From the NCBI RefSeq assembly GCF_900116645.1, contig NZ_FPBO01000026.1, forward strand, positions 1 through 64,000: DNA of 64,000 bases. The letters are read 5' to 3'. A program made the translations under genes and the position numbers. Position 1 is the stretch's first letter. The number at the start of each line of letters is the position of its first letter. Below the pieces are notes generated by a model. The model had not been told where the DNA came from, ran no database searches, and worked only from the letters and a program-made list of their open reading frames with translations. Shown piece after piece: positions 5,696-34,678 of this stretch. This DNA is from Pseudoduganella namucuonensis (lineage in GTDB: Bacteria; Pseudomonadota; Gammaproteobacteria; Burkholderiales; Burkholderiaceae_D).

Positions 5696-6916
5696 ATGCA
5701 AAACCATCCCGCCCCCGACGACAGCCTGCGCCCGCGCGGCTCCAACCAGACCGGCATGCGCCAGTTCAACGAGCGCGTGGTGTTGCAGGCCATCCGCCTG
5801 AACGGCAGCCTGCCGAAGGCGGACCTGGCGCGGCTGACCACGCTCAGCACGCAAACCGTGTCGCTGATCATCAACCGCCTGTTCGACGACGGCCTGGTGG
5901 TCAAGCGCGCGCCGCTGCGCGGCAAGATCGGCCAGCCCTCGGTGCCGATCGCGCTCAACCCGGACGGCGCCTACGCCATCGGCGTCAAGATAGGGCGGCG
6001 CAGCCTGGACGTGCTGCTGCTCGACTTCACCGGCGCGGTGCGCGCGCGCCACTCGCAGGCCTACCGCTTCCCCGACCCGGAGCTGGTGTTCGAGGCCATC
6101 GCCGCGCAAGTGGGCGCGATGCGCGCCGCGCTGTCGGCGGAGGCGCGCGGACGCATCCACGGCATCGGCGTGGCGGCGCCGCTGTCGCTGGGCAGCTGGC
6201 AGGAGTTGATGGGCGTGGCCCCGGACGAGGCGGACCGCTGGAACCGGCTCGACATCGCGCGCCGCATCGAGGCCGGCACCGGCCTGCCGGTGATGTTCGC
6301 CAAGGACACCGCCGCCGCCTGCGTGGCAGAACTGGTGGCGGGCAGGGGACGCAGCGTCAAGAGCTTCCTGTATCTGTTCGTCGACACCTTCATCGGCGGC
6401 GGCCTGGTCATCGACAGCAATCTGTACGCGGGCATGAACGGCAACGCCGGCGCGGTCGGCTCGCTGCCGGTGGGCGTGGCCGGGCCGGGGCGGGCGGCGC
6501 CGCCGCAGCTGCTGTCGGCCGCCTCGCTGCTGGGGCTGGAGCGCATGTTCGAGCAGGCCGGGCTGGACCCGGCCGCCGCCTACGACGAGCGCGCCATGCA
6601 GGGGGCGTGGGCGGCGCACAGCCTGCGCTGGGCCGGGCACGCGGCGGCCGGCGTCGCCATGGCCGTCGCCAGCGCCAGCTGCATGCTCGATCCGGAGGGC
6701 GTGATCATCGACGGCTCGTGCAGCCGCGCGCTGCTGGAGCGCCTGATGGCGGACGTGTCGGCCGCGCTGGGACGCTACGACTGGGAGGGCGTGCAGCGGC
6801 CCCAGGTGCTGGCCGGGACCATAGGCTCGGACGCCCGCGCGCTGGGCGGCGCGCTGCTGCCGCTGTACGCCAATTTCGCGCCGGACCGGGACGTGTTCCT
6901 CAAGCTGGAGGACTGA
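5696..6916 (+). CDS. ROK-family transcriptional regulator
   Basis: A 406-aa repressor-type protein: N-terminal winged HTH (about residues 20-70, with LPKADLARLTTLSTQTVSLIINRL) followed by an actin-like ROK sugar-sensing domain. The GSNQTGMRQFNERVVL lead-in is typical of NagC/Mlc-like regulators. The frame continues up to a GTG at 5645, but ATG at 5696 gives the normal length; no good Shine-Dalgarno supports either. I do not see the canonical ROK zinc cluster (CxCGxxxC) or its His; that segment reads GNAGAVGSLPVG, so the sensor may be metal-free. Divergence from the sugar kinase suggests it represses that gene in response to its substrate. Confidence 0.9.
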   Translation: MQNHPAPDDSLRPRGSNQTGMRQFNERVVLQAIRLNGSLPKADLARLTTLSTQTVSLIINRLFDDGLVVKRAPLRGKIGQPSVPIALNPDGAYAIGVKIGRRSLDVLLLDFTGAVRARHSQAYRFPDPELVFEAIAAQVGAMRAALSAEARGRIHGIGVAAPLSLGSWQELMGVAPDEADRWNRLDIARRIEAGTGLPVMFAKDTAAACVAELVAGRGRSVKSFLYLFVDTFIGGGLVIDSNLYAGMNGNAGAVGSLPVGVAGPGRAAPPQLLSAASLLGLERMFEQAGLDPAAAYDERAMQGAWAAHSLRWAGHAAAGVAMAVASASCMLDPEGVIIDGSCSRALLERLMADVSAALGRYDWEGVQRPQVLAGTIGSDARALGGALLPLYANFAPDRDVFLKLED

Positions 6917-30177: not shown

Positions 30178-31158
30178 TCAGCGCTGCGGCTGGATCACGA
30201 CCTTGCCGGTGACCTTGCGGGCGGCCATGTCGTTCAGCGCCTGCGGGGTCTCGGCCAGCGCGTAGCGGGCGGAGATGTGGGGGCGGATCTTGCCTTCGGC
30301 CATCCAGCCCAGCAGTTGCATCATGCCGGCCAGGTTGGCTTTCGGCTCGCGCTTGGCGTATTCGCCCCAGAACACGCCGACCAGCGACGCGCCCTTCAGC
30401 AGCGCCAGGTTGAGCGGCAATTTCGGGATCTCGCCGTTGGCGAAACCCACCACCAGGTAGCGCCCGCGCCAGGCGATCGAACGGAACGCCGCCTCGGCGT
30501 AGTCGCCGCCCACCGGGTCGTAGACCACGTCCGGTCCCTTGCCGCCGGTGAGGGCCTTGATCGCCTCGCGCAGGTCTTGCGTGCCGTAGTTGATCAGCTC
30601 GTCCGCGCCGTGCTCCTTGCACACGGCCAGCTTCTCGTCGGTGGAGGCGGCCGCGATCACGCGCGCGCCCAGCGCCTTGCCGATCTCGATCGCCGCCAGT
30701 CCCACGCCGCCCGCCGCGCCCAGCACCAGCATGGTTTCGCCGGCCTTCAAGGCCGCGCGGTCCACCACCGCGTGGTGCGAGGTGCCGTAGGTGAGGGTGA
30801 TGGCGGCGGCCGTGTCGAAGTCCATGCCCGGCGGCATCGGCATCAGCGCCTGCACCGGCACCGCCAGCTGCTGCGCGAAGGCGCCGTGCGCGGAGAACGC
30901 GATCACCTTGTCGCCCGGCTTGAAGGCCGTCACGCCGTCGCCCACCGCGCGCACGACGCCGGCCACCTCGTTGCCCGGGGTGAACGGCAGCTCGGGCTTG
31001 TACTGGTACTTGCCCTGGATGATCAACACGTCCGGGAAGTTCACGCCGGCCGCCTGCACGTCCAGCACCACGTGGCCCGGCGCGGCGACCGGGTCCGGCA
31101 ATTCCTCCACGGCCAGGGTGTCGGGCAGGCCCCAGGCTTTGCATACGATGGCTTTCAT
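30178..31158 (-). CDS. Zinc-independent NADPH:quinone oxidoreductase (MDR family)
   Basis: A 326-aa medium-chain reductase of the quinone oxidoreductase type. The N-terminal GroES-like domain has GVNFPDVLIIQGKYQ and PFTPGNEVAG; the Rossmann domain has LGAAGGVGLAAIEIGKALGA. The zinc-ligand pattern of alcohol dehydrogenases is absent. It should reduce quinones or enoyl/enone substrates with NADPH. AAGGAGACCT stands right before the ATG. A TetR-type dyad lies about 27 bases upstream of its start. Confidence 0.9.
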   Translation of the reverse strand: MKAIVCKAWGLPDTLAVEELPDPVAAPGHVVLDVQAAGVNFPDVLIIQGKYQYKPELPFTPGNEVAGVVRAVGDGVTAFKPGDKVIAFSAHGAFAQQLAVPVQALMPMPPGMDFDTAAAITLTYGTSHHAVVDRAALKAGETMLVLGAAGGVGLAAIEIGKALGARVIAAASTDEKLAVCKEHGADELINYGTQDLREAIKALTGGKGPDVVYDPVGGDYAEAAFRSIAWRGRYLVVGFANGEIPKLPLNLALLKGASLVGVFWGEYAKREPKANLAGMMQLLGWMAEGKIRPHISARYALAETPQALNDMAARKVTGKVVIQPQR

Positions 31159-31200: not shown

Positions 31201-31305
31201 TTTTACCCCGGTTCGGGCCCTTGTGTCCGATTGAGAATTCGCAAAGGCGACTGTGGCGCGGTGACTACAGTGAAAACGAGGGCATGCATACGATCGGGGG
31301 TTGCC

Positions 31306-31911
31306 ATGGGCATCCGCTACGGCTGTTTCTTCAGTTACGCGCACGGGCAGCACGCTTACATGAGCAAGTTCAAGAACGATCTTGCGGACGCGCTGCGGTG
31401 TTACCTGGAGCCGCATTTCGACAACGAAAGCGAGCTGTTCGTCGACACCGAACAACTGGGCGGCGGCGACGACCTGGACCGCCGCATCGCGCTGGCGCTG
31501 TGCGAAAGCGTCTGCATGATCATGATCTACACCCCCAAGTACGAGGCGCACGCCTACACGCGTCGCGAGTTCGCCGCCATGCAGCTGATCGAGGAGGAGC
31601 GGCGCGCCTGGTATCCGCTGCCCAGCCACCTGATCATCCCCGTCATCATGACGCGCCATCCGCTGTGCCTGCCGCCGCAGATCACCAATCCCGGCATGTA
31701 CGTCGATTTTTCGCGCTACACGCTGGCCACCGGCGACCTGAAGACCAATCCGGACTTCCTGCCCGACATCGAGAAGATCGTGCAGCGCATCGCGGCCCAC
31801 TACCACTACCTGAAACACTGCATCCCGCCAGGCCACGATTGCAGCCGCTTCGTGCTGCCGCCGATACCGGAAGTCTGGCGCGCCGAGCCGCCTCCCCATT
31901 TTCCCCGTTAA
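31306..31911 (+). CDS. TIR-like domain protein
   Basis: A 201-aa protein, nearly all one TIR-type domain. Box 1 is YGCFFSYAHG (5-14). The BB-loop region is LFVDTEQLGGGDD (44-56), then an aliphatic strand CMIMIYTPKY (70-79) and YTRREF (84-89), where E88 occupies the place of the NADase catalytic Glu of many bacterial TIRs. Activity as a nucleotide hydrolase is therefore possible but unproved. The closest overall look is to TIR-like proteins such as FxsC of FxSxx-COOH clusters. ATG 31306 has a G-rich Shine-Dalgarno. The ParA-TPR gene starts 13 bases after the stop, a clear two-gene operon. Confidence 0.8.
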   Translation: MGIRYGCFFSYAHGQHAYMSKFKNDLADALRCYLEPHFDNESELFVDTEQLGGGDDLDRRIALALCESVCMIMIYTPKYEAHAYTRREFAAMQLIEEERRAWYPLPSHLIIPVIMTRHPLCLPPQITNPGMYVDFSRYTLATGDLKTNPDFLPDIEKIVQRIAAHYHYLKHCIPPGHDCSRFVLPPIPEVWRAEPPPHFPR

Positions 31912-31924
31912 AAAAAGGTGCATC

Positions 31925-33844
31925 ATGGACCACCCGCAACCGCATTTGCCGGCGCTCGCCACGCCCGGAGACGTTATCACATTTCATTCCCACAAGGGCG
32001 GCGCCGGGCGCAGCACCGCCCTGGCCAACATCGGCCTGCTGCTGGCCGGGCGCGACCACGCGACGCGGCCGGTGCTGATGATCGACTGGGACCTCGACGC
32101 GCCCGGCCTGCACCAGTATTTCCAGGCCGGCGACGACGGTCCCGGCGTGCTGGAGTTCTTCCTGGCTTGCCGCGAGCAGTTGCGCCGGCGCCGCCGCCGT
32201 CCGGGCGAGGACAAGGAGGGCCAGGACGGCGCCGAGCTGGCCAGGCAGGTGCTGGCGGCCGTGGGCTGGGAGCGTTACGTGGTGCGGGTGGACCCGGGCC
32301 GGCCGCTGTACCTGATGCGCGCCGGCCGGCAGGACAGCGGCTACGCCGAGCGGCTGGCCGGCCTGGACTGGGAGTCGCTGTTCCTGTCCTGCCCGGCCCT
32401 GTTCCGCTGCTTCTCGGAGTTGCTGGCGCGCCACTTCCGCCACGTGCTGGTCGACGCGCGCAGCGGCCGGGGCGATTGCGCCGGCATCTGCACCGTCCTG
32501 CTGCCGACCCGGCTGGTGCTGCTGTTCGAGGCCAGCCGCCAGAACCTGGACGGGCTGCAGGCGCTGGTGCTGCGCGCCACCACCTACCGCCGCAGCCACG
32601 AGGAGGAGCAGCGCCCGCTGCTGGTGTATCCGCTGCCGGCCCGGCTGGACCTGGAGGACGCGGCCAGGCGCGCGCAATGCCGCCACGGCGAGGCCGGCTA
32701 CCAGCCGGCGTTTGAGCGCGTGCTGGGCGAGGCCTACGGCCTGACCCGGGTGTCGCTGGACAGCTATTTCGACGAGGTGCAGCTGCCGCAGACGCGCGCC
32801 CTGGCCTACGGCGAGCAGTTGCCGGCCCGCGACGAGCCGCTGGCCGACCGCCTGTCCGCCACGCGCGGCTACGAGTCGCTGCTGCTGTGGCTGGAGGACG
32901 GCCATCCGCCCTGGCGTTCGCGCGCCGAGATGCCGCTGCTGCGGGCGGTCGAGCGCGCGCGGAGCGAACTGGACGACGGCAATGCGCGCCGCCTGCTGCT
33001 GGCGCGCGAGCTGTACCGGCTGGGCGAACTGCACCGCGAGGAGGGGCGTCCGCTGCCGGCCATGCTGAGCTTCCGCGAAAGCGTGGAACTGCACGCCAAG
33101 GCGCTGGGCGAGGAGCATCTGGACACCGTGTCGGCCAAGGCGCAACTGGCCGGATTGCTGCTGGGCCAGGGCCGGATGGACGAGGCGCGCCTGCTGCTGC
33201 GCTGCGTGGTCGAGACGCGCGCCAGGCTGCTGGGCGCCGAGCACGCGGACGTGCTGGAGGCGCGCGCGGCCCAGGCCCGCGCCTTGGCCGGGCAGGGCCA
33301 TTTCGCCGCCGCGCTGGCGCGCCAGGAGGAGGTGCTGCGGGTGCTGCTGAGGCGCTGGGGCCGGGACCATCCCATGACCCTGGACGGCATCGCCGCGCGC
33401 GCGGCCATGCTGTACCAGGCGGGCGAACTGGAGCCGGCGCGCCAGGCGCAGGAACAGGTGCTGGCGGCGCGCGTCCGGCTGCTGGGCGCCGGCCACGCCG
33501 CCACGCTGGAGGCCGGCGAGGCGCTGGCGCGCACCCTGGCGCGCATGGAGCGGGACGACGGCCCGCTGGAGGCCGGCATGCCGCCCTCCCAGGGGACGGA
33601 GCCCGCGCCGCGCCGCGTGTCCGGCGTGCAGCAGGAGCCTGGACACTACGGCGCGGGGCAGGGCGCGGAGCACGCCGTCCCGCCCCGGCGCGCCTACGGC
33701 GCCTGGCCCTACGCCGCGCAGGCGCAACCGGCGCCGCGGGAGGAGCAGGCGGCCAACGTGTTTTCGCTGTGGAACGTCCGCCTCGCGCCCCAAGAGCCGG
33801 ACGCCGCGCCGGCGCCGGACGGGGAGCGCGCCGAACTGCCCTGA
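31925..33844 (+). CDS. ParA/MinD-like ATPase fused to kinesin-light-chain-type TPRs
   Basis: A 639-aa soluble protein. The N-terminal half (about 15-325) is a deviant Walker A ATPase: HKGGAGRS has the signature K24, but the usual P-loop Lys is R29. DWDLDAPGLH (54-63) and HVLVDARSG (173-181) mark the other nucleotide motifs. The C-terminal part (about 350-545) has TPRs with an LGxxH(x)DT pattern at about 394, 436, 478 and 520, an exact 42-residue period as in kinesin light chain. The last 95 residues are Pro/Ala-rich and disordered. AAGGTG precedes the ATG. The layout resembles FxsT-type proteins, but no radical SAM or precursor gene is near. I infer that it senses or positions and controls the TIR protein. 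Confidence 0.8.
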   Translation: MDHPQPHLPALATPGDVITFHSHKGGAGRSTALANIGLLLAGRDHATRPVLMIDWDLDAPGLHQYFQAGDDGPGVLEFFLACREQLRRRRRRPGEDKEGQDGAELARQVLAAVGWERYVVRVDPGRPLYLMRAGRQDSGYAERLAGLDWESLFLSCPALFRCFSELLARHFRHVLVDARSGRGDCAGICTVLLPTRLVLLFEASRQNLDGLQALVLRATTYRRSHEEEQRPLLVYPLPARLDLEDAARRAQCRHGEAGYQPAFERVLGEAYGLTRVSLDSYFDEVQLPQTRALAYGEQLPARDEPLADRLSATRGYESLLLWLEDGHPPWRSRAEMPLLRAVERARSELDDGNARRLLLARELYRLGELHREEGRPLPAMLSFRESVELHAKALGEEHLDTVSAKAQLAGLLLGQGRMDEARLLLRCVVETRARLLGAEHADVLEARAAQARALAGQGHFAAALARQEEVLRVLLRRWGRDHPMTLDGIAARAAMLYQAGELEPARQAQEQVLAARVRLLGAGHAATLEAGEALARTLARMERDDGPLEAGMPPSQGTEPAPRRVSGVQQEPGHYGAGQGAEHAVPPRRAYGAWPYAAQAQPAPREEQAANVFSLWNVRLAPQEPDAAPAPDGERAELP

Positions 33845-33940: not shown

Positions 33941-34678
33941 ATGCGTATCCTAATTAGTAACGACGACGGTTATCTGGCGCCCGGCATCACCGCCCTGGCC
34001 GACGCGCTGGCGGCCATCGCCGACATCATCGTGGTGGCGCCCGAGGGCAACCGTTCCGGGGCCTCGAATTCGCTGTCGCTGGACCGCCCGCTGTCGGTGC
34101 AGCGCGCCCCGAATGGTTTTTATTTTGTCAACGGAACCCCCACCGACTGCGTGCACATCGCGCTGACCGGCATGCTGACCGAGAAGCCCGACCTGGTGGT
34201 GTCGGGCATCAACAACGGCCCCAACATGGGGGACGACACGCTGTACTCCGGCACGGTGGCGGCCGCCACCGAGGGTTATCTGTTCGGCATCCCCGCCATC
34301 GCCTTCTCGCAGGGCGCCTTCGGCTGGGAGCACATCGACGACGCGGCCAAGGTCGCGCGCGACATCGTGCAGCGCCATTTCGACACCCTGCCGCGGCCGT
34401 ACCTGCTGAACGTCAACATCCCGAACCGGCCGTACGCCGCCATGGGGCCGCTGGCGGCCACGCGGCTGGGCAAGCGCCACCAGTCCGAGCCGGTGATCCG
34501 CTCGCACGACCCGCGTGGCCGCGAGATCTTCTGGATCGGCCCGCCCGGCGCCTGCAAGGACGCCGGCGAGGGCACCGATTTCCACGCCGTGTCCCAGGGC
34601 TGCGTGTCGCTGACGCCGCTGCAGATCGACCTCACCCACCGCACCCAGCTCGAGACGCTGGCAAAAGGCCTGGCATGA
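33941..34678 (+). CDS. surE: 5'/3'-nucleotidase SurE
   Basis: A 245-aa metal-dependent stationary-phase survival nucleotidase acting on nucleoside monophosphates. The metal site is at the N-terminus (ISNDDGY, D8-D9) with [12 protein letters not shown] and [20 protein letters not shown]. Its last four bases overlap the pcm start (ATGA). A TAAAAT -10-like box ends eight bases before the ATG, so initiation close to the start codon is possible. It heads the surE-pcm-nlpD-rpoS cluster. Confidence 0.96.

Follow-up and report, generated by a model that had tools for sequence, protein, structure and literature searches.

A TIR gene and its KGGVGR-type partner upstream of surE in Pseudoduganella namucuonensis: a candidate NAD-using module in a core locus of one Oxalobacteraceae clade

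The window analysed here, the first 64,000 nucleotides of contig NZ_FPBO01000026.1 of Pseudoduganella namucuonensis (assembly GCF_900116645.1), contains a two-gene unit in which a gene for a stand-alone TIR-domain protein is followed by a gene for an ATPase-like protein with tetratricopeptide repeats (TPRs), referred to below as the partner. Both were found among the reading frames of the window at the positions listed, and 13 bases separate the stop codon of the TIR gene (31911) from the ATG of the partner (31925). This is the arrangement described in the original prediction, and the coordinates as well as the Pfam and NCBIfam models agree with it.

31306..31911, + strand: TIR-domain protein, 201 amino acids, E88 at the position of the NADase Glu (open reading frame (ORF), Pfam, alignment, structure model)
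31925..33844, + strand: KGGVGR-variant MinD/ParA-like nucleoside triphosphatase with TPRs, 639 amino acids (ORF, Pfam, NCBIfam)
31994..32014, + strand: P-loop variant KGGAGRS, residues 24-30; differs from KGGxGR[S/T] in 21 of 63 relatives (sequence, alignment)
33104..33550, + strand: TPR block with a 42-residue period, landmarks at residues 394, 436, 478 and 520 (Pfam, periodicity)

The TIR protein and its partner

The TIR protein belongs to the Pfam family TIR_2 (PF13676), which it matches with 37.5 bits at a gathering cut-off of 28. A structure model was made from 30 sequences, and its best structural match is the TIR of SPARTA (Z 13.3, root-mean-square deviation 2.8, 135 residues aligned); AbTir matches at Z 11.8, and all matches listed are TIR-bearing chains. 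The structural side of the original prediction was thus supported as far as the fold is concerned, in a model with a predicted local distance difference test (pLDDT) score of 80.9. Within this model, E88 lies in the helix formed by residues 83-100, in agreement with a catalytic Glu on helix C, and it pairs with the Glu of bacterial TIRs of solved structure. The scores of these sequence matches are weak, with E-values of 0.56-0.97 in the match table and of 0.56-0.88 for the three alignments displayed. For comparison, 64 named loci of close relatives from Duganella, Pseudoduganella, Rugamonas, Massilia and other Oxalobacteraceae were used, a set that is not to be equated with the five genera counted below. 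E88 is invariant in all 64 aligned TIRs (the window and 63 loci, with locus L094 left out), and so are D47, G53-D56, R86 and R87; the assignment of E88 to the NADase position stands. The invariant Glu and the TIR fold fit a TIR that uses nicotinamide adenine dinucleotide (NAD), and turnover of NAD+ is predicted on this basis.

Many TIRs act by assembly, and the protein could also be non-enzymatic and serve a core regulatory complex as an adaptor or scaffold, with E88 kept for structural reasons. Such a role would suit the replacement of the usual Trp ahead of the Glu by Tyr84 (Tyr in 63 of the 64 aligned TIRs) and the strong conservation along the full length of the protein, C-terminal tail included. 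However, the invariance of E88, R86, R87 and D47 and the presence of NAD-active TIRs among the closest folds speak against it, and we regard a purely structural TIR as improbable. Among the models of the PADLOC database, the TIR protein gave partial matches only, to PDC-S66 (E 0.0016) and Aga_TIR (E 0.0048). Other TIR_2 proteins were observed in the genomes searched: the genome of the window encodes a second one (G000:C18:4780-5106), and in a relative, five TIR_2 matches that together span about 5.3 kb (G011:C2:281126-286409) form an apparent TIR gene cluster away from the locus.

The partner reaches 100.8 bits with the NCBIfam model AAA_KGGVGR (NF047398), whose cut-off is 90, so that its variant P-loop, correctly described in the original prediction as KGGAGRS with K24 retained and R29 replacing the second P-loop Lys, is that of a catalogued family. 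The canonical ParA/MinD signature (second P-loop Lys, GK[S/T]) is absent owing to Arg29, and the ParA/MinD models remain far below their cut-offs. In the C-terminal direction, Pfam identifies four stretches of TPR_10 and in addition TPR_12, and the landmarks listed above confirm the exact 42-residue period proposed for at least four repeats. The structure model of the protein (pLDDT 80.0, with residues 549-639 under 50) as a whole matches TPR proteins, kinesin light chains being at the top among the matches listed, and the sequence search gave a similar picture.

The partner is far from uniform. The 21 departures from KGGxGR[S/T] among the 63 partner-bearing loci, a count that takes in L042, which is altered solely at the first Lys, include the forms RGGAGCT, QEGCGRS, RDDGSRS, ESGTARS and EGGPARN. 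On a quick tree built from the flanking genes of those 58 of the 64 loci that have all data (L093, for instance, has no pcm in the locus), the state of the P-loop changes four times, and at least three of these changes are forced by the starred branches. Another subclade keeps the P-loop motif and is missing the TPRs (six loci, 346-350 amino acids), and the partner at L090 is also short. Since either the P-loop or the TPRs were lost in relatives, we infer that the system can do without ATP hydrolysis and without the repeats and that its common core consists of the TIR and a MinD-like fold; for the same reason, an active ATPase motor is doubtful. In Rugamonas apoptosis (L094, from position 6001 onward), a natural in-frame deletion joins the N-terminus of the TIR to the TPR end of the partner, and this fusion does not contain the catalytic-type Glu.

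Distribution, inheritance and selective constraint

A TIR profile was searched against 294 genomes of the GTDB family from 44 genera, the genome of the window included. It matched 96 genomes, all within five genera, in which the TIR is present in 26/26, 5/5, 26/26, 17/17 and 22/26 genomes (96/100 in total). No match was obtained in the remaining 194 genomes of the family, nor at E 0.001 in 273 other genomes of the class, for which a limited number of candidates was scored per genome. Each of the matching genomes has one profile match, except for one split case. Among the 100 genomes of the five genera, both genes are present in 95, the TIR alone in one and neither in four. The co-conservation anticipated in the original prediction is thus confirmed: of the 96 TIR-bearing genomes, 95 have the partner next to the TIR, as read by hand from the match positions (85 and 10 of 11 others). 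In G268 the pair is split over the ends of two contigs, and the assembly of G292, which is 48% complete, has broken frames. The four TIR-less genomes all belong to the fifth genus; in these four the partner is also absent and the site is closed, as it is in two outgroup genomes (genera g27 and g34). Gain and loss thus affect the pair jointly, and loss is rare.

A system of the toxin-antitoxin type, with the ATPase-TPR protein restraining a TIR toxin, could account for the tight two-gene operon and for the joint absence of both genes from the four genomes. However, the TIR-only genome (G298) keeps the full TIR of 201 amino acids without a partner match, which disfavours a strict arrangement of this kind, and no plasmid copy of the TIR was found; we consider this explanation very improbable.

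The neighbourhood of the pair was also compared. The flank profiles agree with the predicted placement between a quinone oxidoreductase gene and surE-pcm-nlpD-rpoS:

30181..31158, - strand: PIG3-like quinone oxidoreductase (qor); in some relatives, none was found at the locus (NCBIfam)
33941..34675, + strand: surE, followed by pcm, nlpD and rpoS (NCBIfam)

The oxidoreductase (265 bits, cut-off 296.8) and the NlpD-like protein (211 bits, cut-off 311) remain under the cut-offs of their NCBIfam models; SurE, Pcm and RpoS are the other downstream assignments, and a YoaA/DinG-type helicase gene precedes qor. The order TIR-partner-surE is kept in the 60 loci that have the partner and reach surE, and the gap between TIR and partner is at most 30 bases in 60 of 63 loci. 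The upstream side is variable, and the comparison of some loci found no oxidoreductase or no helicase. Pairwise distances of the TIR, compared without L042, L049, L074, L091 and L094, correlate with those of DinG (r 0.88), Pcm (0.89), SurE (0.78) and the partner (0.84). The search of plasmids, phages and viral contigs did not find the TIR; relatives of the partner occur on 18 plasmid records, all with less than 60% identity and none covering 80% of the partner. Because the site and the gene order are conserved and the divergence tracks that of the flanking genes, we regard the pair as a vertically inherited core locus rather than a mobile island. A mobile defence island was rejected on account of the distribution, the synteny and the lack of mobile TIR copies, neither patchiness nor a mobile context having been found.

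The ratio of nonsynonymous to synonymous substitution rates (dN/dS) was determined for 50 of 253 eligible close pairs, with each locus used at most twice and fewer pairs for some genes. The median is 0.046 for the TIR (50 pairs), 0.168 for the ATPase domain of the partner (50 pairs) and 0.277 for its TPR part (42 pairs), while the flanking genes give 0.043 (DinG, 44 pairs), 0.079 (SurE, 48 pairs), 0.079 (oxidoreductase, 35 pairs) and 0.128 (Pcm, 48 pairs). According to these medians, the TIR is constrained at the level of a housekeeping gene and the partner is not. Domains with a degenerate P-loop are nevertheless under purifying selection, with a median of 0.248 (15 pairs) as opposed to 0.171 for intact ones (227 pairs), as calculated from close pairs of the same state without L049, L074 and L091. 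The TIR medians in the intact and degenerate pair sets are 0.065 and 0.079, slightly above the value obtained with the other pair set.

Related systems and the question of defence

The pair shares its ATPase domain, including the loop with the retained Lys and the replacing Arg, with the AAA_KGGVGR (NF047398) ATPases of conflict systems. According to PMC7159879, such systems contain MinD/ParA-like domains for which inactivity is predicted. KGGVGR-like heads elsewhere bear TIR, NACHT and Mrr nuclease, EAD10 and STAND-like ATPase, ORC-CDC6-like or TPR parts, and some of them have TIR, UvrD, caspase, HEPN or MqsA-like genes nearby; these relatives have the appearance of accessory conflict systems. 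The other examples examined, from Burkholderiaceae and plasmids, are sporadic, whereas the locus described here is one core site with a separate TIR gene, and its P-loop decays further. Since KGGVGR heads elsewhere carry TIR, NACHT-nuclease and EAD10-STAND domains, the sensor-plus-effector module of the original prediction remains reasonable; a partner working as an active ATPase motor is doubtful.

Several of these relatives deserve a description of their own. A plasmid of Sinorhizobium chiapasense encodes a KGGVGR head and a TIR in one protein (L214:4995-7199), and the same region contains two additional TIR genes and a gene for a UvrD helicase; the TIR of this fusion has no BLASTP similarity to the locus TIR. 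With the profile of the locus TIR family, no match was obtained in the 13 loci searched near other Burkholderiaceae KGGVGR genes, and no TIR was detected in ten neighbour proteins that were scanned. With one dissimilar plasmid fusion and nothing in these loci and neighbours, a general pairing of TIR and KGGVGR was rejected. Other architectures are a KGGVGR head with an ORC-CDC6-like region (363 bits, L162:1749-4718) and one with an Mrr nuclease and a NACHT domain (L163:191-2767). At L155 (1915-4371) and at the plasmid loci L216 and L220, an MqsA-antitoxin-like gene, which at L155 is under the Pfam cut-off, directly precedes the KGGVGR-type gene, possibly as a separate system.

The actinobacterial FxSxx-COOH systems also combine a TIR-like protein (FxsC) with a TPR protein (FxsT), and the comparison drawn in the original prediction is reflected in partial model matches. 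However, the locus proteins are far below the curated cut-offs (37 vs 130 and 72.6 vs 300), which gives no membership, and the 64-kb window has no FxSxx-ending ORF of 20-120 amino acids with an ATG, GTG or TTG start, in accordance with the predicted lack of a precursor peptide. A relic of an FxSxx system was rejected on both counts. With the NADase effectors SPARTA TIR-APAZ and AbTir, the TIR shares the fold and the position of the catalytic Glu, but the partner and the genomic behaviour differ. Searches of the open-access literature found nothing for KGGVGR, nothing that joins TIR-TPR, MinD-like or ParA-like proteins with anti-phage activity, and an unrelated match only for FxsC.

The original prediction had regarded the unit as a candidate signalling or defence module and had named universal presence without variability, and without an NADase or defence phenotype, as an outcome that would speak against it. 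The presence is indeed largely universal in the five genera, while the partner varies strongly, and a patchy anti-phage cassette is not supported, given the vertical inheritance within the clade and the absence of the TIR from the mobile elements searched. The near-universal presence and the vertical descent weaken the defence reading, yet a core gene can still be immune. In this form, the unit would be an abortive-infection pair fixed in the core genome, in which the TPR protein would sense a product of infection and release an NAD+-depleting TIR, as other TIR defence systems do. The fold and the invariant Glu of the TIR are consistent with this, as are the domains and neighbours of KGGVGR proteins elsewhere, the partial match of the ATPase head to the PADLOC candidate PDC-M28B (E 2.1e-13), the distant partner relatives on plasmids and the fact that the TPR part evolves fastest. 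The single, near-universal and vertical locus, the lack of mobile TIR copies and the persistence of the operon in the subclade with missing TPRs argue against it, and we rate an anti-phage pair as unlikely.

Promoter dyad, quorum sensing and proposed function

Two features precede the TIR gene in the window:

31230..31245, + strand: window copy of the dyad TTTGCGNNNNCGCAAA with two mismatches (upstream-region comparison)
31266..31271, + strand: -10-like hexamer TACAGT, 3' of the dyad; most relatives have TAGAGT or TACAGT (by eye)

Most loci have the dyad; it is perfect in 20 of 65 regions upstream of the TIR and has at most one mismatch in 39 of 65, compared with 0 of 1300 and 0.4% in shuffled upstream regions; the statistics take the best of three spacings within 200 bp, use mononucleotide shuffles and count related loci separately. 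A consensus promoter scanner reported no + strand promoter at the site of the hexamer in the window. Of the ten genus genomes searched as a whole, six have a perfect dyad at the TIR promoter, and in G017 and G018 this is the sole perfect copy of the genome; the counts in the other genomes searched range from 0 to 7, and among three genomes from other families, one contains two copies.

A possible regulatory context is provided by Janthinobacterium sp. HH01, where Jab_2c19720, a "TIR domain containing protein", has a log-fold change of -2.29 in the autoinducer-synthase mutant (Table 3 of PMC5080296). The table assigns this gene to the core genome except for J. sp. Marseille and marks it as having a JAI-1 motif; it lists no function for it and no adjacent TPR or ATPase gene. 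Jab_2c19720 is probably the TIR gene of the locus, because the locus TIR occurs in 39 of 40 genus genomes and other TIR_2 matches in 18 of 40, and because the VipB gene of the type VI secretion system (T6SS) lies 61-87 kb from the TIR in 15 of the 40, consistent with the T6SS cluster given for HH01 as Jab_2c19030-19160 in PMC3566124.

In 7 of 8 loci, the JAI-1 motif precedes the synthase gene. The dyad of the TIR is similar to it in layout and has different half-sites, and JAI-1 itself was rejected as the site at the TIR promoter on account of its rarity there. Upstream of the synthase, the motif reads TTGAT-N4-ATCAA in 6 of 8 loci (L207, L208, L210-L213), which has the shape of an FNR-type box.

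Taken as a whole, the locus reads as a conflict-type KGGVGR module that settled into the core genome. We propose that a two-gene module with a TIR effector turned into a core chromosomal locus in one Oxalobacteraceae clade, an NAD-consuming TIR set by a scaffold or sensor being the most economical mechanism, and we give this reading an even chance of being right. The TIR protein would consume NAD+ by hydrolysis or by forming a signal of the cyclic ADP-ribose type. The KGGVGR-TPR protein would bind the TIR and set when it is active, mainly as a scaffold or sensor, since a partner that has lost its P-loop is unlikely to need ATP hydrolysis. Expression would be regulated, and at least one species may switch the TIR on near high cell density, as the quorum-sensing RNA sequencing lists the probable locus TIR as activated. 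The output may be an NAD-based signal or a self-limiting response, with phage infection as one possible trigger.

Some observations weigh against this proposal. The confidence of the TIR model is moderate, and G298 has its TIR directly before surE with no match to the protein that would control it. Nor is the dyad specific to this promoter in every genome: G015 has its one perfect copy, and G028 its six, at other sites, and G000 and G026 have no perfect copy. The identification of Jab_2c19720 with the locus TIR is indirect. Among the seven single-contig genus genomes, VipB lies within 87 kb of the TIR in four, is far away in two and was not found in one. The exact published JAI-1 motif occurs in 2 of 65 TIR upstream regions against 0.43 expected, and no synthase of the CqsA/JqsA type over the cut-off was found in 12 of the 40 genus genomes, the one of the window included; for these last two reasons, the quorum-sensing link cannot hold everywhere.

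More speculatively, an immune-type TIR and pseudo-ATPase may have been captured once by the ancestor of the clade and domesticated into a core, density-regulated NAD switch with a nucleotide-free sensor and the rare dyad as its control site, a scenario that we hold to be possible, though doubtful. Most of what is known about bacterial TIRs comes from accessory defence systems. The TIR described here is constrained like a housekeeping gene and occurs in nearly all genomes sampled from the five genera, together with a partner whose ATPase motif has decayed repeatedly. It is a natural test case for TIR signalling beyond mobile immunity, and the natural variation of the partner suggests that a KGGVGR protein need not hydrolyse ATP. 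The clade takes in soil and water bacteria, and a quorum-sensing mutant has been published. What looks like an ordinary immune module may thus be a core cell-signalling switch.

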